Positions 16,425 to 29,902 of a stretch of 64,000 nt of DNA are shown piece after piece. This stretch comes from Proteus penneri (GTDB taxonomy: Bacteria; Pseudomonadota; Gammaproteobacteria; Enterobacterales; Enterobacteriaceae). Under the pieces are notes generated by a model. The model was not told where the DNA came from. It made no database searches and saw only the letters and a list, made by a program, of their open reading frames with translations. Location: positions 62,001 to 126,000 of the forward strand of contig NZ_PHFJ01000002.1 of the NCBI RefSeq assembly GCF_003144535.1, read 5' to 3'. The translations under genes and the position numbers were made by a program. Position 1 is the first letter of the stretch. Each line of letters begins with the position of its first letter.

Positions 16425-16509
16425 AATTATTGAATATTTTTAGATCACAGCATTGATATCCATCATTGAGGTTGATTTAGAATTAAAAATAGAGTGGATA
16501 ATCAATATA

Positions 16510-16992
16510 ATGCAAAATAATTTTGTTTTACGCAGTGTACGTTACATGCTGGATCTAAGTGATGCACATGTTGTAGAAATCATGAAACTAGCCGATTACA
16601 CCGTCACAAAAGAGTTAGTCAATAGTTGGCTGAAAAAAGACGATGAACCTGAATTTGTCGAGTGTGACGATAATGCGATGGGACATTTTTTAAATGGCCT
16701 AATTTTTTATCGTCGTGGAAAAGATGAAAACTTCCCAGCACCTGAAGTTGAAAAGCGTATCACAAATAATATTATCCTAAAAAAACTGCGTGTCGCTTTT
16801 GAATTAAAAGATGTGGATATTCTGAAGATTTATGAGCTTGCAGACTTCCGTGTTTCTAAGCCAGAACTTAGCGCGATATTTCGTAAACCAGGACATAAAA
16901 ACTACCGTAATTGCGGTGATCAGCTGGTAAGGTATTTTCTGAAAGGCTTAACCGAAACTCTACGTGGCAAAGGTAAAACGGTTAAGAAATAA
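16510..16992 (+). CDS. yehS: YehS-like DUF1456 family protein
   Basis: A 160-residue cytoplasmic protein of unknown function. It has two related halves of about 70 residues: LRSVRYMLDLSD followed by MGHFLNGLIFYRRGKDE, and LKKLRVAFELKD followed by LVRYFLKGLTETLRGKG. This is the DUF1456 repeat seen in E. coli YehS. ATG 16510 (MQNNFVLRSVRY) is preferred over 16453, which adds a non-family N-terminus; the ribosome site is weak. It stands alone between two terminators. Confidence 0.85.
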   Translation: MQNNFVLRSVRYMLDLSDAHVVEIMKLADYTVTKELVNSWLKKDDEPEFVECDDNAMGHFLNGLIFYRRGKDENFPAPEVEKRITNNIILKKLRVAFELKDVDILKIYELADFRVSKPELSAIFRKPGHKNYRNCGDQLVRYFLKGLTETLRGKGKTVKK

Positions 16993-18777: not shown

Positions 18778-20850
18778 TTACTCGTTAAGTTGAATAGGTA
18801 ACGGGATCTGCAATTGTTGCAGATTATCGCATAGCCAAATTAACTGTAATAACGCCCGTGAGTCACGGGAAGTTAATGCCAAATAATAAGCTAATTGATC
18901 AGCTATTAATGTCATCCCTAAATCGTCTGCGGTGTGTTTGCTTATTTCTAATTGCTCTTTTTGCATTTCTGAGAGTAATTCCCGTCCGGTACATGCTTGG
19001 GTTTCTAATACAGACAAAATAGGGCGACAGAACTTTTGTGCTAATGTCGGTTCACTGTGATGCATTGCTGTTTGTTGCTTACGTTTAGCCATATATTCTT
19101 GAATACGGCTAATAAAGCCTGATTGTTTTTTCTTACGTGGAAATTGGTCAAAATCGAGATAAAACAGTTCAATGCCTTTTTCTGTTTTGATCCAAATAGT
19201 CGTTGGTAACAAGTCTATATTGAGATCACGCCGAACGGGTTGCACCGTGATGGCGACAATTTCTAACTCTTTTTTGGTAAGAAAGCGCAACTCTTCTAGA
19301 TTATTTTGTGTTGTTCCTTCCCAATAGAGACGCAAGAATGCTGAATTTTCATGATTATCTGATACTTCCCAAATGACGCATTGCTCAACCTCATACCAAA
19401 TTAAAGGTTTATAGTTTTTGATATGCAAAACAAGAGGGGAAAGAAACCCTTCTGTTTGATGGGCAAAGTAATCAGGTAAATCTTGCCAATTATTGATGCC
19501 TAGCTCAGTTTGTAAATTGTTATAGTCCGTCATATCAAGAAAATCTGCTTGATTTTGAGCAAAGCTATCACCAATAGTGGCGAGTTTTCCTTCATCAGAA
19601 ATACGAGGATCTTGTAATAAAAAAGGACGACGCATTAATTTATCCGCAGTTTGTTTCCATAATGACAAACTGTTCCAAACACCATAACGATTAAACAAGG
19701 TATCGAGCTGATTAGGGCGCGCTTGTGTCGCTTGTAATAGCTGTTTTTCTTCGCTATCCCAAAAGGTAAACGTTGCTCCTAATGCGCCACTTTGTGCTGT
19801 CCACCAATTTGCACCAACTGGAATAAGAGAAAGGCTATTTTTTTTATCATCATATTGACGACGAAGTTGCCCTCGTAACACTTTTAACTGTTCTGGTGTC
19901 GCATTAGATAATTGGAATAAATAGGCAGAAATATGGGCTAATAAACGCAAGACATTGCTTTCATCCATGGTGAAGTGTCTTTCTGCCAACAGTTTGACTT
20001 GAGTGCTTAATGTTCTTAAATAAGACGCTAAACGAGGTAAACCTTCCGCTCGAGCGGACATATTTAATAAATGCAACTGTGTGGCACTGCTTAAGCTAAT
20101 ATGTGATAGCCCTTGACGTAATAAATCATAAATAAATTGTTCAATGGTATTAATTAGAGCTATTTCTTCATCATTCAGAGGACGTTTAGAAGATTGCACC
20201 GTCATTAAATCTTCAGGCCATGTCCATGGTTGAGCATGTTGTTCAAATAATTTAGCCACGATAGCGAGATGAAAGGCTTTTTTCTGTGAGTCAGAAAATG
20301 GCGATAATATGCCATCGTAACCACTCGCTTGTAAGAAAATAACAGGTTCATTCACATCAGGAAGTTGAATTTTTAACTGAGTTCCTGTGTCTTCTAGATT
20401 GAATGTTATATTTTCCCATTGCTCAATTAATTTAATTGCTGCTCGACAGGCTGGTTTACCCGCTTTTTTGATTAATGCTTCTGGATCAAGAGCAAATAAT
20501 GTGGGTAGCAGAGGGGCGATTTCAACAGGCTCAGTAATGACTTCTAATGATATTTCACCACTATTATCGTTATTTGAATTATCAGCACTATTATTAGCTT
20601 GGAGCCATAAAATGGCGGCTAAAATATGTTTACAGCAACCAGATGCAGAACAATCGCAACTGGCTTGTTGAATACCCGCTTCGTGTAAAACAACATTTTG
20701 TCCATCACTACTGAATTGCCCTGTATTGGCATCAGTGAGAGATACTTTTTCGTTATCAACATCTTTTCTTGCGCGTCTTAATAATCCTGCATTAGCAAAT
20801 ACAGTGAGCGCATCTTCATCGTAATGAAAGTAAACGGTTTGCCAACTCAT
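18778..20850 (-). CDS. SWIM zinc-finger protein (YehQ-like)
   Basis: A 690-residue cytoplasmic protein of unknown function, last in the five-gene cluster. The SWIM zinc finger is near the N-terminus: C65-D-C67, five residues, then C73-K-H75. The remaining 600 residues are mostly helical and match no domain I can name. ATG 20850 (MSWQTVYF) overlaps the VWA gene stop as ATGA, so the two are translationally coupled; a start at 20871 is less likely. Position, length and SWIM domain match E. coli YehQ. SWIM domains usually bind DNA or protein; the target is unknown. Confidence 0.8.
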   Translation of the reverse strand: MSWQTVYFHYDEDALTVFANAGLLRRARKDVDNEKVSLTDANTGQFSSDGQNVVLHEAGIQQASCDCSASGCCKHILAAILWLQANNSADNSNNDNSGEISLEVITEPVEIAPLLPTLFALDPEALIKKAGKPACRAAIKLIEQWENITFNLEDTGTQLKIQLPDVNEPVIFLQASGYDGILSPFSDSQKKAFHLAIVAKLFEQHAQPWTWPEDLMTVQSSKRPLNDEEIALINTIEQFIYDLLRQGLSHISLSSATQLHLLNMSARAEGLPRLASYLRTLSTQVKLLAERHFTMDESNVLRLLAHISAYLFQLSNATPEQLKVLRGQLRRQYDDKKNSLSLIPVGANWWTAQSGALGATFTFWDSEEKQLLQATQARPNQLDTLFNRYGVWNSLSLWKQTADKLMRRPFLLQDPRISDEGKLATIGDSFAQNQADFLDMTDYNNLQTELGINNWQDLPDYFAHQTEGFLSPLVLHIKNYKPLIWYEVEQCVIWEVSDNHENSAFLRLYWEGTTQNNLEELRFLTKKELEIVAITVQPVRRDLNIDLLPTTIWIKTEKGIELFYLDFDQFPRKKKQSGFISRIQEYMAKRKQQTAMHHSEPTLAQKFCRPILSVLETQACTGRELLSEMQKEQLEISKHTADDLGMTLIADQLAYYLALTSRDSRALLQLIWLCDNLQQLQIPLPIQLNE

Positions 20851-22007
20851 TGCATTACCTCTGCTAGCCATTGCGCGAAATGTTCTGGTGTTAAAGCGGC
20901 AACTTGCATACCTCTGTCCGCGAGTTTTTGTGCAATCGCAGAGTCATAAACAGGTTGAGCTTCATCATCAAGTGCAGCAAGCCCTAATAATTTAACTTGT
21001 TGGCTATTAAGACGTTGTGTGCAATCTAATAAGCGGTTTAATGAGCCACCTTCTTCAAAGTCACTGATTAGTGAAATAACGGTACGTTTAGGGTTTTTGA
21101 CTAAACTTTCACAGTATTGCATTGCACCAGCAATATCAGTACCGCCTCCTAATTGTACGGTCATTAAAACCTCAACAGGATCGTCTGCTAGATGAGATAA
21201 ATCGACAACTTGAGTATCAAAAACCACTAAAGAGACATTAACGGCAGGCAATGAAGCTAAAATACTGGCACAAACAGCCGCATACATAATGGAACTAGAC
21301 ATTGACGCACTTTGGTCAACACAAAGAATCACATCCCACGGAAAATGCTGTTGCATCCGTGAGTTAAAATAAGGTGTTTCAATCACTAAACGGCGATTTT
21401 GAGTATCGTAATGTTTTAAATTCGCCGCGATAGTTGCACGCCAATCAAAGTTACGACTATTGGGGACTAAAGAGCGTCTAAAACGGTTACGACGACCTGT
21501 TAACGATTGGCGAAAATTATTACGAATTTGACGTAAAATATCTTCAACCACTTTGCGAATAATAGTTTTAACCGCATCTCGTGTTTCGTCGCTCATTCGT
21601 CCACGTAAGCTTAATAGTGTTTTGGCTAACACTTTTGTGGGCTCCATTGCTTTTAACGTATTGGGATCTTTAAGAAAGCTACTGATTTGATAACGTTCAA
21701 TAGCTTGTGATTGCATACGTTCAAAGGTGCTATTAGGGAATAGCTTACGTGCTTGATTTAACCAGTTTACCGCAGTAAGTTGCGATGCATCGAGTGAGCC
21801 ATGACGTCCTCGTTCTTGACGAAGCCCTCGGCGCTGATATTCTCGGCGATAGAGAAAGTCGAGTGTGCGTTCAACTTTTAAATCATCAGCATTAAACGTT
21901 GCTTGCCCAAGAGCATCATCAGCATATTGACCTAAAATCAGGCGCCAGCGTTTTGCTTGTTGTATTTTATCTTCAGGCATATCGTCATTATGCTGACTCA
22001 TGGGCAT
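20847..22007 (-). CDS. yehP: VWA domain protein (YehP-like), putative MoxR partner
   Basis: A 386-residue protein. The N-terminal half is helical and basic (SLTGRRNRFRRSLVPNSRNF near 168-187). The von Willebrand A domain spans about 224-386 with an intact MIDAS: D231-Q-S-A-S235, T290 in GGGTDIA and D316 in ISDFEEGG. ATG 22007 was chosen since AAGGAGAC lies just upstream; this overlaps the end of the DUF5682 gene by 20 bases. VWA proteins next to MoxR ATPases typically act as their adaptor or substrate-recognition partner; that role here is inferred. It matches E. coli YehP in length and motif order. Confidence 0.85.
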   Translation of the reverse strand: MPMSQHNDDMPEDKIQQAKRWRLILGQYADDALGQATFNADDLKVERTLDFLYRREYQRRGLRQERGRHGSLDASQLTAVNWLNQARKLFPNSTFERMQSQAIERYQISSFLKDPNTLKAMEPTKVLAKTLLSLRGRMSDETRDAVKTIIRKVVEDILRQIRNNFRQSLTGRRNRFRRSLVPNSRNFDWRATIAANLKHYDTQNRRLVIETPYFNSRMQQHFPWDVILCVDQSASMSSSIMYAAVCASILASLPAVNVSLVVFDTQVVDLSHLADDPVEVLMTVQLGGGTDIAGAMQYCESLVKNPKRTVISLISDFEEGGSLNRLLDCTQRLNSQQVKLLGLAALDDEAQPVYDSAIAQKLADRGMQVAALTPEHFAQWLAEVMQ

Positions 22008-24567
22008 TGTCTCCTTTCTCTGTTTTCTTAGTATCAAACCAAGAAATCATGCCTTGTTCCGTTATACGCTGTTGCAGTTTTTGATTGAGTTTAGTGGCTT
22101 CAAGCATCTGTTTAGCACTAAATTCTGACTGCCATAATGATAACGCTTGTGTATCTAAACCAATATCGTTGGCAATATATTGTGCAAGCTCTGCATTTTG
22201 CTTGGGATTAAGTTGGCTAAATGCAAAACGCAGATCAGGCAAGATCTGAATAAAACGTTCTTCATCCCATTGTTGTAACAAGGTATTTAAGTGATCAACC
22301 AATAAAGGTAAGCGGATCACAAGCTCTGGTGCTGTGCGCATCATCCCGACAAAATAACCAATAGCTTGTTCAGGCAAACTTCCTGTACTAAACGTGGCAT
22401 TTAATGCGTTTGTCAGCGTGGTTTCATCAATATATGAGCCTAAATAGCGCAATGCATCAACAGCACCTTTTAATAAAGGAACTGCATCTAGTTGACCATC
22501 AAGGCGATTGAGTTGCTGATAGAAATCACTTTTGTAATCATGTGGATTATTGAGTGATGGCATAAATTCAATCAGTTCACGTAAAGAGAGCAAAGCTTGT
22601 AAATTGCTTTCTTGTTGTTGTTCATCACCTTGAGCGAGTTGTTCTAAACAAAAGAAAGCTTGTGGAATAACTTGATGTAGACGATTTTCAAGTGAAAGCT
22701 CATCGGTAATATCAAGGTATTGGCGACCTCGCCATAAATGGATCAATTTATGTCCACATTGAGTTAATGACTCAAGACGAAAATCTTGCTGAATATAGCT
22801 ATCTAACAGTTTAAAGAGTGATGGAATGCGCTGGTGGAGGCCAATTAATGCCGCTTGTGTTAATAACGTGACGGCACTTTGACTTGAACGGCTTTGCCCT
22901 TGCTCCTCAAGCTGTTTTTCCATCGATAACAACTTAGTTAAGGCGATAGCTTCAAGTTGTGAGCCTTTCTCTGATAATGAAATCAGCTCGCCTTCCACAT
23001 TAGGTGTCCAAGCGTACTGCCACTCTTCAAATAATAAATCCAATTGATGACCAGAAAGAAAGTCAGGGCCATTGATTCGATGTGCAAAGTGAATTTCTAA
23101 GAAAGCCAGTAAATGTAAAAAACGACTTCTTAAGCGATGTTGCGGGTTGCGGTAAACATCACACTTAGTGGTTTTTGCTAATGTATCATCCAGTTTGAAG
23201 CGAAACGCTCTAGCACGCTCATAGGTTTCATTGACTAAAGGAGGCGTTGCCGTACCTAATGGAATTTTGCCTAAAAGATAGCCTGAAAAACAGGTTTTAA
23301 TTTCTGTCCATAACTCGCTTTGGCTATCATCTAAACTGCCCTTAATAAAGGCACTTTGTAAACCATCAAGCAAATCATAACGACCCATACCAGCGTGATC
23401 TCTCAGTAAAGCAAGGCGTAAACTTTGCTCGGCAGCCAGTTTTACGGCTAAATAGCTAGGTGGATTATCAAATTGTTTTTCTCTAATAGATTGAGCCACT
23501 GAGCTTAAAAATGCGATCCCCATTTTATTGCGATAAATTTGGGTAGGTTGTTTAGCAAGAGCATTATTTTCTAATTTATCATAATGTTGTTGCATTAAAC
23601 TTTGCCAAACTTGTTGATAAAAAGCCGGAGATGGCATACCAGAAGCATAGCCATTAAGTGCATCTAATCGGTCAAAACTGTAGCGAATAAGCCAAGCTTG
23701 TTCTTTTTCGGCCATTCTTTGCATTTTAGTGAATTGCTTTTGCTCTGTGCTAGAAATGGCGAAAGAGTGAGATTGTGAATTGGCTAGACCTTCAATTAAT
23801 GCAAGGGTATGAAATCCTCCTGTCACAATTAAAATCTTGGCATTAGGATCTTGTTGTTTGATGGTTTGAATATGAGTGAGCATATGAGCTTCACGTTGCG
23901 AAGAACCTTCTGATTCAAGTACTTCTGGCTCATAATCAAGGCGCGCAAGTGCACACCAAATAAAGGTATCATTAAAGAGGGTTTGCCAATCAGCTAAAGC
24001 TTCAATGTTGCGTAGCTCAAAAAGATGCTCCCAAACATCATCATGATCACGGCAATGACATTTTTTGGCTAATTGTGCAATAAACTGGCTATGGGCTAAA
24101 TAACGTTCTTTTTGTAAGCTACGACTTTGTGAATCACTATACTCTTCGTTATTAACCTGAGCTGCCCATGGCAAATCGATAAAGCGTGTTTTTGCATTGA
24201 TGCGTAAACCACCTCGCAATGCTTGCCATTCAGGAGAATATTCACAAAATGGAAAATAGGCAGAGTGCAGTGATTTCTCACGCCCTTCTTGGTTACCATC
24301 ATTATGCAAATATTCTGCTTGCCCCATAATAGCCACGGGAGGCAGGGTGTCTTTATCAGTCAGGCTTGGAATAAGAGAATTAAAGGTATCAGGGCCTTCA
24401 ATTAATATATAGTCAGGCTTTACCGAATCAATTAGTGATAAAACCGCATAAGCACAAGCGGGGCTGTGATGGCGTACTGGGGCAAAATAGAGATGTTGTT
24501 GCTGTAACGACGTCCATTTCAGTCGTGCTTGGTCAATTCTTTCTGGCAAAGGTATTGAAGGTAGCAT
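21988..24567 (-). CDS. DUF5682 family protein (YehM-like), TIKI/ChaN-like N-terminal domain
   Basis: An 859-residue protein of unknown activity. The first 260 residues carry conserved polar motifs: RHHSPAC (32-38), EGPDTF (57-62), RFIDLPW (128-134), REAHML (225-230) and VTGGFHT (248-254). Their order resembles the metal-dependent TIKI/ChaN/EreA superfamily; this link is my inference. The rest is helical. ATG 24567 was preferred because the upstream extension (to TTG 24654) runs through an 11-bp hairpin; GTG 24570 is an alternative. It lies between the MoxR and VWA genes, as yehM does in E. coli. Confidence 0.75.
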   Translation of the reverse strand: MLPSIPLPERIDQARLKWTSLQQQHLYFAPVRHHSPACAYAVLSLIDSVKPDYILIEGPDTFNSLIPSLTDKDTLPPVAIMGQAEYLHNDGNQEGREKSLHSAYFPFCEYSPEWQALRGGLRINAKTRFIDLPWAAQVNNEEYSDSQSRSLQKERYLAHSQFIAQLAKKCHCRDHDDVWEHLFELRNIEALADWQTLFNDTFIWCALARLDYEPEVLESEGSSQREAHMLTHIQTIKQQDPNAKILIVTGGFHTLALIEGLANSQSHSFAISSTEQKQFTKMQRMAEKEQAWLIRYSFDRLDALNGYASGMPSPAFYQQVWQSLMQQHYDKLENNALAKQPTQIYRNKMGIAFLSSVAQSIREKQFDNPPSYLAVKLAAEQSLRLALLRDHAGMGRYDLLDGLQSAFIKGSLDDSQSELWTEIKTCFSGYLLGKIPLGTATPPLVNETYERARAFRFKLDDTLAKTTKCDVYRNPQHRLRSRFLHLLAFLEIHFAHRINGPDFLSGHQLDLLFEEWQYAWTPNVEGELISLSEKGSQLEAIALTKLLSMEKQLEEQGQSRSSQSAVTLLTQAALIGLHQRIPSLFKLLDSYIQQDFRLESLTQCGHKLIHLWRGRQYLDITDELSLENRLHQVIPQAFFCLEQLAQGDEQQQESNLQALLSLRELIEFMPSLNNPHDYKSDFYQQLNRLDGQLDAVPLLKGAVDALRYLGSYIDETTLTNALNATFSTGSLPEQAIGYFVGMMRTAPELVIRLPLLVDHLNTLLQQWDEERFIQILPDLRFAFSQLNPKQNAELAQYIANDIGLDTQALSLWQSEFSAKQMLEATKLNQKLQQRITEQGMISWFDTKKTEKGDNAHESA

Positions 24568-24594
24568 CACCGTGTCGATCCCTTTTCTGGGTGA

Positions 24595-24622
24595 AAAGGC
24601 AGAGTGAGTTAACTCTGCCTTT
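24595..24622 (-). other. Intercistronic hairpin between the MoxR and DUF5682 genes
   Basis: A perfect 11-bp stem (AAAGGCAGAGT with ACTCTGCCTTT) has a 6-nt loop and a short TTTTC tail on the minus strand. It sits in the only sizeable gap of the cluster and may adjust the ratio of ATPase to downstream proteins. Confidence 0.5.
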
Positions 24623-24668
24623 AATTGATAAATAATGTATTTATTGTGTAGCAATTAATCTCAGCGTG

Positions 24669-25778
24669 TTATTGCCAAAACTCTTTTGATGCATCAAAGA
24701 ACGCTTTCCACTCTTTACTGTTTCTGGCTCTTTCTCTGGCTACATTGTCCATGTAATAACGAATACGCTTGATATCATCAGCATTGTCTTTTAATACAAC
24801 ACCGATTAATTGGCGTGCAATTGCACCAGCATTCATCACTCCATCACCTAAATAATGCGCTTCTAAGGCGCAAGCATAAGCAATGTTTACAGCTTCTGCG
24901 GTTGACATAACTGCATCAGGCGTTTTGATATTGCCGCCATCTTGTGTATTACCTGAACGTAATTCTTGGAATGTGGTTACCAGCAATTCCACTACGTCAG
25001 CAGGCACCGTCACTTCATTAGCTAAAGAGCCTAATTCATTTTCAAGCTGTGATTGGATCAAGCTAATTTCAAATGCCGGATCACGAATAGGTTTTACGGT
25101 TTCAAAGTTAAAACGGCGCTTTAATGCGGCTGACATTTCATGAACACCACGATCGCGTAAGTTTGCGGTACCGATAAGGTTAAACCCAGGTTTTGCACTA
25201 ATACGCGCACCATCACCCATTTCGGGGATCATTAACTGTTTTTCTGACATCAAAGAAACCAGTACGTCCTGAATTTCAGGAGGACAACGGGTTATCTCTT
25301 CAAAGCGAACAATTTTACCTTGCAACATACCTTGATAAAGCGGTGATCCCACTAAAGCGCGCTCTGTTGGGCCTTCTGCTAATAACAACGCATAGTTCCA
25401 TGAGTACTTGATGTGATCTTCTGTAGTGCCCGCAGTGCCTTGAATAGTTAATCCTGAATCACCGCTGATGGCGGCAGCAAAAAGCTCTGAGAGCATTGAT
25501 TTTGCTGTACCTGGTTCACCCACTAGCATTAAACCTTGCTTGCCTAATAATGTGACAATCGCGCGATCAACCAAGGCATCGTCACCGAAAAATTTAGGTG
25601 TGATGCCTAATGCATCATCACCTAAAATAAATTGGCGTACAGCACGAGGAGAGCGAAGCCATCCTTGTGGTTTAGGATTATTAACATCTGCTTTTGTTAA
25701 ACACTCTAACTCTTGAGCAAATCGAACCTCAGCACTTTCCCTGATTACTTGTTGATCTGCGGGTGCTTTTTTAGCCAT
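24669..25778 (-). CDS. yehL: MoxR-family AAA+ ATPase (YehL-like)
   Basis: A 369-residue AAA+ ATPase. Walker A is GEPGTAKS (87-94), Walker B is IVRFEEIT (156-163), sensor 1 is IGTANLRDRG (202-211) and the arginine-finger region is ALKRRFNF (218-225). MoxR proteins are hexameric remodelling ATPases usually paired with a VWA protein, here two genes downstream. It follows the DUF4132 gene by 25 bases on the same strand. The actual substrate is unknown. Position and motifs agree with E. coli YehL. Confidence 0.88.
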   Translation of the reverse strand: MAKKAPADQQVIRESAEVRFAQELECLTKADVNNPKPQGWLRSPRAVRQFILGDDALGITPKFFGDDALVDRAIVTLLGKQGLMLVGEPGTAKSMLSELFAAAISGDSGLTIQGTAGTTEDHIKYSWNYALLLAEGPTERALVGSPLYQGMLQGKIVRFEEITRCPPEIQDVLVSLMSEKQLMIPEMGDGARISAKPGFNLIGTANLRDRGVHEMSAALKRRFNFETVKPIRDPAFEISLIQSQLENELGSLANEVTVPADVVELLVTTFQELRSGNTQDGGNIKTPDAVMSTAEAVNIAYACALEAHYLGDGVMNAGAIARQLIGVVLKDNADDIKRIRYYMDNVARERARNSKEWKAFFDASKEFWQ

Positions 25779-25803
25779 ATTCTTTCCTAGTTATCCCTAA
25801 TTA

Positions 25804-28800
25804 TTACCAAGGTGTTTTCTTTTCCCATTCAGGATCAAATCCTGCACAAGCTTCAGCGATTTTTAGATAATCAGCATAGCTTTCAGCTAATAAAATTGGC
25901 GGAACTTCTTTTAGCTCAACATTATTGCGATCCCAGTAATTTTGCTGATTTTTCTCAAAGCTCAAATCAAATAAGACAGCAGGAATGTTTTCCTCTGGCA
26001 CATAGCTACCACTGAAACCGATGTTGACGTAGTAGTTTAAACTAGAGAAGAATTTGTAATAGTGGGAGAACGAACCTCCATCTTCTGCTGGGCCACGCTG
26101 ATAACCCATTTTGGTTAAAATACCGCGTAAAGTGAAAGTGTCTGTGATCCAGCCTTTTCGGTCTTCAACTTCTGTTTGCGTTAGATCTAACTCTGGGATC
26201 TTATGTTCCATTTGTGAGAATAAGAACTTCACTTTGTAATCTTTAAAATGAGCAATCCATGCTTTGCGTTCATCTTCATTAACTAATGCCGCGTGGGCTA
26301 ATTGAATAAATGAGTCGTTTTGTAAAGTGACTTCGTCATCTTCAAGGTTAAGCAATGCGCCGTCATCAGAAGGGCGGAACGTATTGATCACTTCGCCATT
26401 TTTAACTTCCTGCCAAACTAATTGTTCAATTAATTTATGCATAATTGGGTGAGCTAAAATATATTCTTGCCAATCTGCACTTAACCATTGACGTTGAGCA
26501 CACATGGCTTCATATAAACGCACACTTTGTAATTCAATAACTTGTTTAAGTTCTTTTTTACTTGAAGTGAAAAGTTTTTTCGCTTCCTTAATCAGCTCCG
26601 CATCATCATTTTTGCGCGCAGCAGGTAACGCTTTAACTTCTTTTCCTTCTGGATTAAATAGAACAAGTTTTTGTTTTGCATCCATTTTTGCAGTGAAAAT
26701 ACGTTCACCATATTCCAGCACTAATGTTCCGGTATCATCAAAACCTGCGGTTGGAATAGTTCTATCGGCTAATTCATCTGCACTCCAGCCATTACGCTCT
26801 GCGATTTGCGTAACTAAATGACGGGCTTTTTCCTGAACAGATGCAGTGCGATAGCGACGAGATAACGAAAGAAGAAGTTGGATGATAATAGGATCATTGC
26901 TTGAAGCAACCGCATCAATCATCGCTTCAATTTGTGCACGACGCTGATAATGATCGCGCATATAGTTGCGTAGTACAGATACCGCAACATGACCTTCAAT
27001 CCCACAGATAAGCGCTAACATACCTTTATCACTGATTGCAGAGCCTAAATAACGACGTAATACCTCGTTTTTAATCTCTTCAATTACTTGCTCTAAAGTG
27101 TAGTTTTCATATTTAGCGTAATATTCAGGATAACGCTTCGCCCAGTTTTGATAATTGCTTAAACGTCCCGGTGCTTCACGTTGCGCTTCTACCATTGCTT
27201 CTTCCAGTGATGGCCCTTTAATATCCTGAGCAACGAAGGTATGCAGAATAAAGCTAGAAAGTTTATGTTGGCTATCTGTAGAAAGCAGGCCGATATAACG
27301 TTGTAATAGCGCGTTGCCTCCTGGCATTTTTAATTTTACTGCCAGAATAATCCACCAACGAATAATCGCGGGATCAACCGCTTTTTTATTTTCCCATGTG
27401 AGTGCAGGAATTGCCTCAAAATTAAACCAAGCAAGGCTTGCTGGTACTTTGGCTTTAAGGCCTTTTTCAGCTTCTGCTAATAATGTTTTTGGTGATAAAT
27501 AGCTCGAAATGTCTTCACCTAATTGCTCTAATGCAGTGAGTAAAGAAGCTCGCACTACTTCGCGTTTCTCTTTTTTCAATAAGGCATTAAGCGCAGGTAA
27601 GGAATCCGGATTATTTAAGCGAGCTAGCCATTCAATGGCTGTAACACGGATCTCTTGTTTACTTGAGGTTAATCCTTCTTGTGCACTTAAATGAATATTA
27701 GGCAGAGTTTCTAATAATTTTTGTGCAGAAACGCGGTGTGTTTTATTTTCGCCTAATGCCAATTCCATGATGCGCGGAACAAATTGTGCAGGAATGGTTG
27801 GGAAACGACCTAATACTTCTATACCTTGTGATGTTTCAAATTGACGATAACGATGTTCACTTTGGTTTGGCATTAAGTTTAGGGCTTCTGCAATATAATC
27901 AGTATGTTGAGAGAAGAAAGGCCAAATTTGTTCTGGTTTACGAAAACGGCGTAAACCATCTTGATAGGATTCTAAGCATAGTGCCGCTGTGACACGGGCT
28001 GCACGTTTGAAGCCACATCTTTCTAATACATTTTCAACTTGTCGTAATTCAATATCACTAAATAAACGCTCAGGAATATCACCATTAAAGTAGTGAGAGG
28101 AGAAGTGATCGGCATGTTGGCGGTTGTTGGTTATCACACGCACAGCATGAAAGAATGTGTATTCTGGCAAATTAGGAATACGATTTTTGTGTTTAATAAT
28201 TTGGATCTCATTCGACTGAATAGTGCCTTGCCCACTGTTGAGTTTATCAACTAATGCACGACATTGTTTTTCATCAATCTTAGATAAATCTTTATAATGA
28301 CGTTGTGCCCAATTATAAGAGTGCTTCGATGTTTTATTTTCTTCAATTTCGCGTTCAGCATTTTCTTTCGCTTTAGCTAACATTTCATTGAAGTTATTGA
28401 CCATCATATCACGGGCACTATCGGGTAATGGTGTATCTTCTAATGGCGTAAAATCAGGGGCTTCGATGGCATCAACAGTGTTTGCATTATCAGCAACGCT
28501 AAAGCGTTGTAGGGCACTTTCAATACTTTTGATGACTGCTTTTGAGGTTTCATGTTTTAACGCTTCTTCAAGTACATCACGGTTTTCACCTTGGCGAGCA
28601 AATAAATCAGCCGCTTGTGTACGTTGTTTTGGTGTACCATTCATTAAAACATGGGTTAAATTTTCTTTTACAATTTCAGCCGGTAAGGTATTTAAAATTG
28701 GCTCTGCGGTTTTCTTAACGGTTTTTAAGTTACTGGTGGCAAGTAAAACAATAATATCTGCAAAAGTATCGCGTAATATCGTATTTTTATTTAGATAGTT

Positions 28801-29532
28801 AATGAGCTCAACTAAACCATTTGCTGATAGTTTTTCAATTAATTCTGTTCTAATAAATTCTTGATGTGAAAGTAGATAATCTTTTAAATCATGAAGTTCA
28901 TAAATACGCTTAAGATTAGAAGCATAATATTCAGAGATATCTTTTCTATCAAATAGTGCGAATAATGCATTTTCGCCTGCAATATTGGCCTCTGCTTCGA
29001 CCATATTAGCGATAAATTCCATACTCCAATGTTTACGATGCTCTAAATTAAGATTACGTGCATTATCATAAGTAGTGTAAAACGCATCAACTAACAGGTA
29101 AATAACCCAAGTTGGCACTTCAGTTGTTGTCACTTTGATATTGATATCTTGACATGCGGCTGCAATGACTTTTGCATAACGAGCGACTTGTTCTAAGGAA
29201 AAGCTTTCGCCAACTTTAGAGTAAAGCTTATGGCGGGCATTAAGGCCTTGGGTGATAACTTTACTATATTTTCCTGTATCAATATTACTGGCATACCACC
29301 ATTCTAATGTTCCTGCACGATGAAAATAAACGGCTGCTTTTGCTGCATCCAGTTTATTTAACTCAAAAAGAATTTCAGGGTTTTTGCCTGTAAGTACATA
29401 ATCTAATGCACGTTTAGGTAATCCTTCATCAAATATAGCAAGTAGTACAAGAGATTCTTGGAGATATTTCTCAGTAATATCGACGTCTTTTTTCCCAAAA
29501 ATAGGGAAAATGTCTAAGATTTTTTTTATCAC
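25804..29532 (-). CDS. yehI: Large HEAT-repeat / DUF4132 protein (YehI-like)
   Basis: A 1242-residue cytoplasmic protein, first gene of the cluster. It is helical, with HEAT-like repeats around residues 270-345 and 580-670 (for example RVTAIEWLARLNNPDSLPAL). A DUF4132 region lies near the C-terminus, about 900-1090 (IFTAKMDAKQKLVLFNPEGK region). E. coli YehI (1210 residues) shares the architecture and was once linked to molybdate metabolism as molR, but its function is not established. The start is GTG 29532 with AAGGAA nine bases upstream. There is no transmembrane segment or signal peptide. Confidence 0.82.
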   Translation of the reverse strand: MIKKILDIFPIFGKKDVDITEKYLQESLVLLAIFDEGLPKRALDYVLTGKNPEILFELNKLDAAKAAVYFHRAGTLEWWYASNIDTGKYSKVITQGLNARHKLYSKVGESFSLEQVARYAKVIAAACQDINIKVTTTEVPTWVIYLLVDAFYTTYDNARNLNLEHRKHWSMEFIANMVEAEANIAGENALFALFDRKDISEYYASNLKRIYELHDLKDYLLSHQEFIRTELIEKLSANGLVELINYLNKNTILRDTFADIIVLLATSNLKTVKKTAEPILNTLPAEIVKENLTHVLMNGTPKQRTQAADLFARQGENRDVLEEALKHETSKAVIKSIESALQRFSVADNANTVDAIEAPDFTPLEDTPLPDSARDMMVNNFNEMLAKAKENAEREIEENKTSKHSYNWAQRHYKDLSKIDEKQCRALVDKLNSGQGTIQSNEIQIIKHKNRIPNLPEYTFFHAVRVITNNRQHADHFSSHYFNGDIPERLFSDIELRQVENVLERCGFKRAARVTAALCLESYQDGLRRFRKPEQIWPFFSQHTDYIAEALNLMPNQSEHRYRQFETSQGIEVLGRFPTIPAQFVPRIMELALGENKTHRVSAQKLLETLPNIHLSAQEGLTSSKQEIRVTAIEWLARLNNPDSLPALNALLKKEKREVVRASLLTALEQLGEDISSYLSPKTLLAEAEKGLKAKVPASLAWFNFEAIPALTWENKKAVDPAIIRWWIILAVKLKMPGGNALLQRYIGLLSTDSQHKLSSFILHTFVAQDIKGPSLEEAMVEAQREAPGRLSNYQNWAKRYPEYYAKYENYTLEQVIEEIKNEVLRRYLGSAISDKGMLALICGIEGHVAVSVLRNYMRDHYQRRAQIEAMIDAVASSNDPIIIQLLLSLSRRYRTASVQEKARHLVTQIAERNGWSADELADRTIPTAGFDDTGTLVLEYGERIFTAKMDAKQKLVLFNPEGKEVKALPAARKNDDAELIKEAKKLFTSSKKELKQVIELQSVRLYEAMCAQRQWLSADWQEYILAHPIMHKLIEQLVWQEVKNGEVINTFRPSDDGALLNLEDDEVTLQNDSFIQLAHAALVNEDERKAWIAHFKDYKVKFLFSQMEHKIPELDLTQTEVEDRKGWITDTFTLRGILTKMGYQRGPAEDGGSFSHYYKFFSSLNYYVNIGFSGSYVPEENIPAVLFDLSFEKNQQNYWDRNNVELKEVPPILLAESYADYLKIAEACAGFDPEWEKKTPW

Positions 29533-29875
29533 GCCAGTTCCTTAAGCTATGTATGGATAAACAGTTTTTTTTACCATGAAATAGCGAAACGAACAATTTG
29601 ATTATCATTGTTGGAAACGAAAGTAAGGTATATCATTTGTTAAATTTATAGATGTAAACGCTAAAAAAGCTAACCTAGCTTTATTAATATTCAATTCTGC
29701 AATATATAAAACGTTATATCAGGAAAAAGTGCTGAAAATGAAGAAGTGATAATAAAGGCATTTTTTGTGGTATTTGAAAAATTTAAGAATTGTCTGTTTA
29801 ACAAAATAAGCGTTAACACTTAGCTAAATTGATTAAAAAAATAACAGCGGAAAATAAGATCAATTGTAAGAGAAA
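29533..29875. other. Spacer upstream of the yeh-like cluster
   Basis: A 343-bp AT-rich noncoding stretch that must contain the promoter of the five-gene cluster. No clear operator, repeat or sigma-54 element was recognised. Confidence 0.4.
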
Positions 29876-29902
29876 ATCCCGTACCTTTTAGGGATACGGG
29901 AT
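29876..29902 (-). terminator. Terminator of the minus-strand MFS gene
   Basis: An 8-bp stem, ATCCCGTA with TACGGGAT, has an 11-base loop. On the minus strand it is followed by TTTTC just after the MFS stop. Confidence 0.65.

Follow-up and report, generated by a model that had tools for sequence, protein, structure and literature searches.

We report a five-gene set in a 64,000-nucleotide stretch of Proteus penneri DNA (contig NZ_PHFJ01000002.1, positions 62,001 to 126,000; hereafter the window), in which five tightly packed minus-strand open reading frames (ORFs) at 18778-29532 encode a DUF4132/HEAT protein, a MoxR ATPase, a DUF5682 protein, a VWA protein and a SWIM protein. Our comparisons show that the set is a real and widespread five-gene unit, and a new variant among the MoxR-VWA systems. 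Because the five families co-occur, keep their order, diverge together and are paralleled by the architecture of a second class of loci, we consider it very probable that the genes act together as one functional unit. As to what this unit does, our best explanation, held with rather more hesitation than conviction, is a single cytoplasmic, ATP-driven protein-remodelling and processing machine; that it serves an accessory function spread by horizontal transfer, and is not a dedicated phage-defence system, forms part of the same explanation and shares this hesitation. An initial annotation, made from the sequence alone, had described the minus-strand cluster and suggested that it works as one unit; the ORFs and Pfam families are as it claimed, and co-occurrence, order and co-divergence agree on the unit. 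The genes are as follows.

25804..29532, minus strand: DUF4132/HEAT protein, 1242 amino acids, GTG start, first gene of the set; Pfam DUF4132 and HEAT_2
24669..25778, minus strand: AAA+ ATPase of the MoxR family, probably YehL type, 369 amino acids; Pfam AAA_5
21988..24654, minus strand: DUF5682 protein, 888 amino acids from a TTG, or 859 from an ATG at 24567; Pfam E 2e-94
20847..22037, minus strand: VWA protein of the CoxE type, 396 amino acids from a TTG; an ATG at 22007 lies behind an AGGAG-like site
18778..20871, minus strand: SWIM zinc-finger protein, 697 amino acids; a second start at 20850 gives an ATGA overlap with the VWA stop

To judge from the sequence, the mechanically listed starts of the DUF5682, VWA and SWIM genes are probably too far upstream, and 24567, 22007 and 20850 fit better. 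With these starts the MoxR and DUF5682 genes are 101 nucleotides apart, DUF5682 and VWA overlap by 20 nucleotides, and VWA and SWIM are joined by the ATGA overlap; 25 nucleotides separate DUF4132 from MoxR. Besides the DUF5682 match, the Pfam scan gave VWA_CoxE (E 4e-49), AAA_5 (E 2e-34) and DUF4132 (E 1e-32) together with HEAT_2, while an NCBIfam scan of the five proteins yielded matches for MoxR alone, all far below the cut-offs.

Co-occurrence was assessed in 123 loci, comprising the best 80 of at least 568 DUF5682 relatives from a genome-contig search, 36 regions from genomes of the order and phylum, five plasmid loci, one E. coli locus and the window. They form 98 clusters at 70% DUF5682 identity, 81 of them flanked on either side by 5.5 kb or more (the 17 with short flanks were left out), and counts were taken from all stop-to-stop ORFs because ORF picking in high-GC DNA yielded false antisense ORFs. 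All five families lie on one strand in 57 of the 81 non-redundant loci, and beside DUF5682 there is a MoxR gene in 77, VWA in 78, SWIM in 65 and DUF4132 in 58. The order MoxR-DUF5682-VWA is retained in 74/81, so that the gene-neighbourhood search proposed in the initial annotation as a check came out in favour of the set. DUF4132 varies in position (it opens the set in 37 loci, closes it in 14, separates VWA from SWIM in four and is placed otherwise in three), and three DUF4132 matches are on the opposite strand. By record title, the hosts of the best 80 relatives fall into the Pseudomonadota, Bacillota, Spirochaetes, Planctomycetes, Verrucomicrobia, Actinobacteria and Bacteroidota, the phyla to which we take their genera to belong.

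At the level of whole genomes, 394 from the order were compared: 27 have DUF5682 and 26 have DUF4132, with both present in 18, DUF5682 alone in nine, DUF4132 alone in eight and neither in 359 (Fisher P 1e-18). DUF5682 was found in 14 of 398 genomes of the phylum and, within the genus, in 19 of 20 genomes, source genome included, and the order and phylum searches revealed further copies elsewhere in some genomes. Pairwise identities across the five families correlate strongly (r 0.83-0.96, the highest of 200 permutations being 0.16) in 76 loci from which five duplicates had been removed and in which several Proteus rows remain, although these r values are inflated by shared host ancestry. Host kinship is not the whole pattern, since DUF5682 identity between Proteus and E. 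coli (27%) is lower than that between Proteus and Verrucomicrobium (30%) or Pseudomonas (33%). No widely recurrent sixth gene emerged: among 916 neighbouring ORFs compared, no family was present in more than nine clusters, and the commonest, at nine, was a MATE transporter in the member examined (Pfam names were obtained for members of just four recurrent families). Fused ORFs were seen for DUF5682-VWA (L054) and VWA-SWIM (L087); their domain ranges are partial or overlapping, and they were not used as support.

The initial annotation had also likened the gene order to that of E. coli yehI-yehL-yehM-yehP-yehQ, placed the set between ybgI and gltA, and proposed that it moves as a block. The same order is indeed seen in E. 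coli SCU-102, where the set adjoins metG and includes a second, WGR-bearing DUF4132; the DUF4132 paralogue beside yehI is presumably MolR. In the window, the set is flanked by ybgI/NIF3 and citrate synthase, and two further genes, one MFS and one AraC-type, lie in between. Identity between the two sets declines from MoxR (48%) and VWA (43%) to DUF5682 (27%), SWIM (19%) and DUF4132 (16%). Distant blastn matches of the MoxR gene occur in 32 of 5426 E. coli genomes, all of them to yehL among the 20 matches listed, and yehL has the same neighbour genes as the window MoxR. DUF5682 relatives at 90-95% identity are from Proteus species; the Proteus lineage is nearest to the sets of Providencia, G217, A. 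brisouii and Gilliamella, and the E. coli lineage to the sets of G315 and of an Iodobacter plasmid. Because the two lineages differ and their nearest relatives are distinct, we favour separate acquisitions over vertical descent with relocation. Movement as a block also agrees with the plasmid-borne copies, found on the Iodobacter plasmid (with the SWIM gene split into two ORFs), on a conjugative Sinorhizobium plasmid and on an E. coli IncF plasmid (L168, NZ_CP103756.1), where a yeh block that looks chromosomal in origin lies between IS26 copies beside resistance genes. Within E. coli, yehM is found in 5284 of 5426 genomes (in 5166 of them with 80% or more of its length covered), and a query of the entire block, extra DUF4132 included, reaches a coverage of at least 80% in 4504. 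Against four Proteus relatives the five genes have dN/dS values of 0.014-0.083, indicating purifying selection, with dS of up to 1.34, so that the ratios are rough.

A second class of loci parallels this architecture. In 11 of the 81 clusters MoxR-DUF5682-VWA occurs without DUF4132 and SWIM profile matches, and upstream on the same strand stand a divergent SWIM protein (11/11) and a DUF5691 protein (9/11). Five loci (L132, L134, L135, L153 and L156) have SWIM-DUF5691-MoxR-DUF5682-VWA on one strand, with Pfam names checked for L134 and L153. The two SWIM types are related beyond their zinc motif (hhalign P 1e-7, probability 94%, 146 columns), and there may be a resemblance between DUF5691 and the HEAT portion of DUF4132 (P 7e-4, probability 27%, 82 columns), while six other pairs compared gave P 0.08-0.75. 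A single Hymenobacter ORF contains both the SWIM-type and the DUF5691 part, a case firmer than the other fusions, though the two profile ranges overlap. As DUF5691 usually stands in for DUF4132 in this class, the HEAT scaffold seems to have been swapped with the motor pair and DUF5682 held constant.

DUF4132 is also the component most often multiplied: at least two copies are present within the locus in 24 of the 65 clusters that have it, as against one for SWIM (a split gene) and none for the other families, the count being based on the locus with most matches per cluster and including genes that are split (L069) or copies on the opposite strand (L057, L064). Some copies bear a WGR domain, namely the first E. 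coli DUF4132 paralogue and both copies of L164; none was detected in the window DUF4132 by the Pfam scan. Since it is swapped for DUF5691, often duplicated and sometimes equipped with WGR, DUF4132, in which the initial annotation had seen a large HEAT scaffold, looks more like an exchangeable client adaptor than a fixed scaffold. The conserved C-terminal part was modelled:

25807..27015, minus strand: DUF4132 protein, conserved C-terminal residues 840-1242; structure model with predicted local distance difference test score (pLDDT) 91.6

This model had no Foldseek match under E 0.001, and its last ~115 residues resemble the YugN fold. In P. alimentorum, an extra DUF4132 gene of 872 amino acids lies upstream of the set (L117:1931-4546), and the window is without it.

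The motor pair and the SWIM protein retain their characteristic motifs, whose conservation was read from 76-row alignments.

25497..25520, minus strand: MoxR Walker A motif GEPGTAKS; G, P, G, T, A and K in 75/76 rows, with one gap
21303..21317, minus strand: MIDAS DxSxS of the VWA protein; D, S and S in 76/76 rows
20626..20658, minus strand: SWIM motif CxC-x5-CxH; C 74, C 74, C 73 and H 73 of 76 rows

The initial annotation had called all key motifs intact; Walker A, MIDAS and CxC-x5-CxH are, polar residues of DUF5682 (below) are invariant, and the Walker B has an unusual form. The usual Walker B has D-E, whereas that of the window MoxR (24669-25778) reads RFEEITR, with E-E in 75/75 ungapped rows (one of the 76 being gapped). 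The window SWIM protein matches the Pfam SWIM profile at E 0.001 with 18.9 bits, below the cut-off of 19.6, and 32 of 48 relatives match it at E 0.01.

DUF5682 combines an alpha/beta domain with an alpha-solenoid. Its N-terminal domain is likely, though not proven, to have a TIKI/ChaN/esterase-like fold, which in ChaN, HopBA1 and Ere has helices around a core of parallel beta-sheet; this reading draws on profile and model comparisons.

23650..24564, minus strand: N-terminal TIKI/ChaN/Ere-like domain (likely fold), model residues 1-305
21991..23547, minus strand: C-terminal alpha-solenoid, model residues 340-858, from secondary structure and matches to helical repeat proteins
24466..24474, minus strand: R31-H32-H33 at the end of the first strand, invariant in 76/76 and 58/58 rows
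24397..24399, minus strand: E56 (LIEGP) at the end of the second strand, invariant
23809..23811, minus strand: H252 (GGxH), invariant

The best profile match of the domain by hhalign is ChaN, and His, Glu and His come in the same order as in the TIKI superfamily. Active TIKI members have a 2His/2Glu catalytic set (PMC6254334), of which DUF5682 has two His and one Glu invariant, and the first Glu, placed by the hhalign alignment to ChaN, is replaced by Arg in 76/76 rows. The whole DUF5682 model had no Foldseek match under E 0.001 (EreC ranked 22nd, E 0.63). Comparison of the DUF5682 profile with four Ere homologues by hhalign was negative, two of the four matching the seed with only ~20 bits, and the same Ere set was also negative with TraB (P 0.39). 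A sequence search of the PDB gave no match under E 0.1 for DUF5682, VWA, SWIM or DUF4132, and midasin for MoxR. The hhalign probabilities are low, which adds to our hesitation over the mechanism and gives slightly more weight to cofactor maturation, considered below. As for the metallo-hydrolase suggested earlier, the hydrolase-like fold is likely and the metal part is not borne out, EreC and RRSP being called metal-independent and Tiki metal-dependent (PMC7979712, PMC6254334). In five loci (L151, L164, L165, L166 and L167) the DUF5682 ORFs reach ~965-1320 amino acids through an N-terminal extension or insertions; in L164, a Pfam scan at E 0.01 matched nothing in the ~400 residues ahead of DUF5682.

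In the proposed machine, the HEAT and SWIM proteins would recognise and hold a client, with DUF4132 as the exchangeable adaptor, and the VWA protein would connect this loaded complex with the ring of MoxR. By hydrolysing ATP, MoxR would then remodel the client or the complex, and DUF5682 might hydrolyse or otherwise process a client bond through its conserved His-Glu-His. A more specific version, in which interchangeable HEAT/SWIM adaptors pick the clients and the MoxR-VWA motor feeds them to a hydrolase of the TIKI fold, would make the set an ATP-dependent protease or esterase of the cytoplasm that has no relation to ClpXP, Lon, HslUV or FtsH; we regard this version as unlikely, if worth stating.

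Maturation of a metallo-cofactor or tetrapyrrole, in which the MoxR-VWA pair would help to load a metal centre, much as CoxD-CoxE or chelatases do, and DUF5682 hold the cofactor through its ChaN-like fold, would suit both the CoxE family membership of the VWA protein and the profile match to ChaN, a heme-binding protein (PMC7979712), and the name MolR of the E. coli WGR protein points to molybdate (PMC8533742). That molybdate link, however, rests on genetics known at second hand, and no recurrent metalloenzyme was seen beside the set, the commonest neighbour family being the one with the MATE transporter mentioned above. The hosts also include Lachnospiraceae and Clostridia, which are largely fermenters, and we judge such a role improbable. 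A part in DNA damage and genome maintenance, with WGR-DUF4132 and SWIM proteins binding DNA or DNA-bound proteins that the MoxR complex would remove or process, is more improbable still. It can draw on the WGR domains of the E. coli paralogue and the L164 copies, on the D. radiodurans drA0165-drA0166 operon (DUF4132 in DRA0166), which is upregulated on DdrO depletion, and on the placing of MolR in the LexA regulon (both PMC8533742). The window DUF4132 lacks a detected WGR, though, and LexA-type boxes are no more frequent than expected upstream of 531 labelled ORFs, whose DUF5682 labels stem from a drifted profile and may in part be false (enteric boxes, 1 against 1.5 expected; Gram-positive, 0 against 1.6; relaxed, 2 against 3.5). 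LexA-type sites in the window are likewise not above chance (15, shuffled mean 19.3); one site with a single mismatch lies at 29549-29564, just before the DUF4132 start. With counts at chance in both samples, SOS regulation was rejected.

The initial annotation had thought of a role in conflict, and a MoxR-VWA threshold switch that frees a DUF5682 effector upon infection would fit the description of MoxR-vWA conflict systems (PMC7159879), the patchy spread in order and phylum, the plasmid-borne copies, the restriction-modification genes that follow the set on the Iodobacter plasmid and the PDDEXK nuclease gene adjoining the Hymenobacter set. Our results speak against it, and we think it rather improbable. 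None of the five proteins (0/5) matched a PADLOC 2.0.0 model at E 0.01, and the flanks showed no visible excess of defence models: 105 genes around 20 of the 36 order and phylum loci gave 86 models at E 1e-10, and 100 of 140 picked control genes from the same genomes gave 148. The models listed, 25 of each total, include Cas1/Cas3 I-F, TmtA, PD-T4-6, DrmD and others for the flanks, and GajA, GajB, DpdF, PsyrT, mad3 and AriA for the controls. On these results the idea of a defence island was rejected. The components are conserved under purifying selection, and the near-universal yehM and the presence of DUF5682 throughout almost all of the genus likewise tell against a conflict role. That the genes have no joint function, and are neighbours by chance or through shared regulation only, we hold to be very improbable indeed; no experiment links them and no joint phenotype is named in the papers listed, but order kept over several phyla, co-divergence and the parallel second class all argue otherwise. 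A viral origin was rejected as well, the viral contig search having given 30 pattern matches and no relative of the set, and 50,697 phage records a single partial DUF5682 match. The latter record (MT835988.1, 14,207 bases, labelled Bacteriophage sp.) matches over 60% of the query at 25% identity and may be mislabelled bacterial DNA.

Around the set, one further element may belong to it, known from pattern matches:

29533..29876, minus strand: possible leader/promoter region of the set

A terminator-like hairpin at 29876-29902 precedes this region, and promoter and terminator pattern counts in the region are not above those in shuffles. A DUF1456 (yehS-like) gene at 16453-16992 is convergent beyond ybgI, with ~1.8 kb between it and the SWIM gene; yehS of E. 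coli is likewise convergent beyond yehQ, although the two sets are of different lineages, and among the 123 loci this neighbour was seen in Proteus loci and E. coli (including the plasmid copy) only.

The DUF5682 gene is thus near-universal in E. coli, the best studied bacterium, yet the papers listed from the open literature name no function for it or for the five-gene set; subscription papers were mostly not covered, and an earlier description of the neighbourhood may exist. DUF5682 is without mention in that literature, and two papers there that mention DUF4132 give no function for this set. Five separate genes now become one testable problem, that of a conserved five-part unit for which an active site and a client adaptor can be proposed. 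Should DUF5682 be an ATP-coupled hydrolase, the set would be a new design for bacterial protein quality control or regulation; should it be a binding protein, it would be a new client of MoxR maturation. If the protease or esterase version holds, the set would represent a phylum-wide class of AAA+ processing machine that has not been described before, and whose DUF5682 gene is carried by 5284 of 5426 E. coli genomes.

Among known systems, the E. coli yeh genes come closest, sharing all five families and their order, and differ in their separate lineage, their second, WGR-bearing DUF4132 (SCU-102) and their neighbour metG. YehL is a named MoxR subfamily (PMC3893208). RavA-ViaA of E. coli resembles the set in that one operon encodes a MoxR ATPase and its VWA partner, for which a role in complex maturation was proposed; it belongs to another MoxR subfamily, and by its description in the part of that source covered, which mentions no DUF5682, SWIM or DUF4132 partners, the present set stands apart (PMC3893208). 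CoxD-CoxE is alike in that a VWA protein of the CoxE Pfam family (E 4e-49 here) goes with a MoxR-like ATPase, and unlike in that no recurrent enzyme was seen beside the present set, where molybdenum hydroxylase or CO dehydrogenase genes would be looked for and where four of the recurrent neighbour families have a Pfam-named member. With the TIKI superfamily (ChaN, TraB, erythromycin esterases, HopBA1) DUF5682 shares the likely N-terminal fold and the His-Glu-His order, differing by the Arg in place of the first Glu and by the large alpha-solenoid after the domain. The MoxR-vWA ternary conflict systems of Kaur et al. (2020) likewise join a MoxR-VWA pair to further conserved proteins, the third component being VMAP, inactive STAND, FtsH or a beta-propeller (PMC7159879); a Pfam scan at E 0.1 found none of these in our five proteins, bpMoxR reaching 23 bits against a cut-off of 27. 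For their own systems Kaur et al. proposed a MoxR-driven restructuring of vWA-bound complexes and noted a statistical bias to multicellular bacteria (PMC7159879), and the hosts of the present set include E. coli and Proteus.

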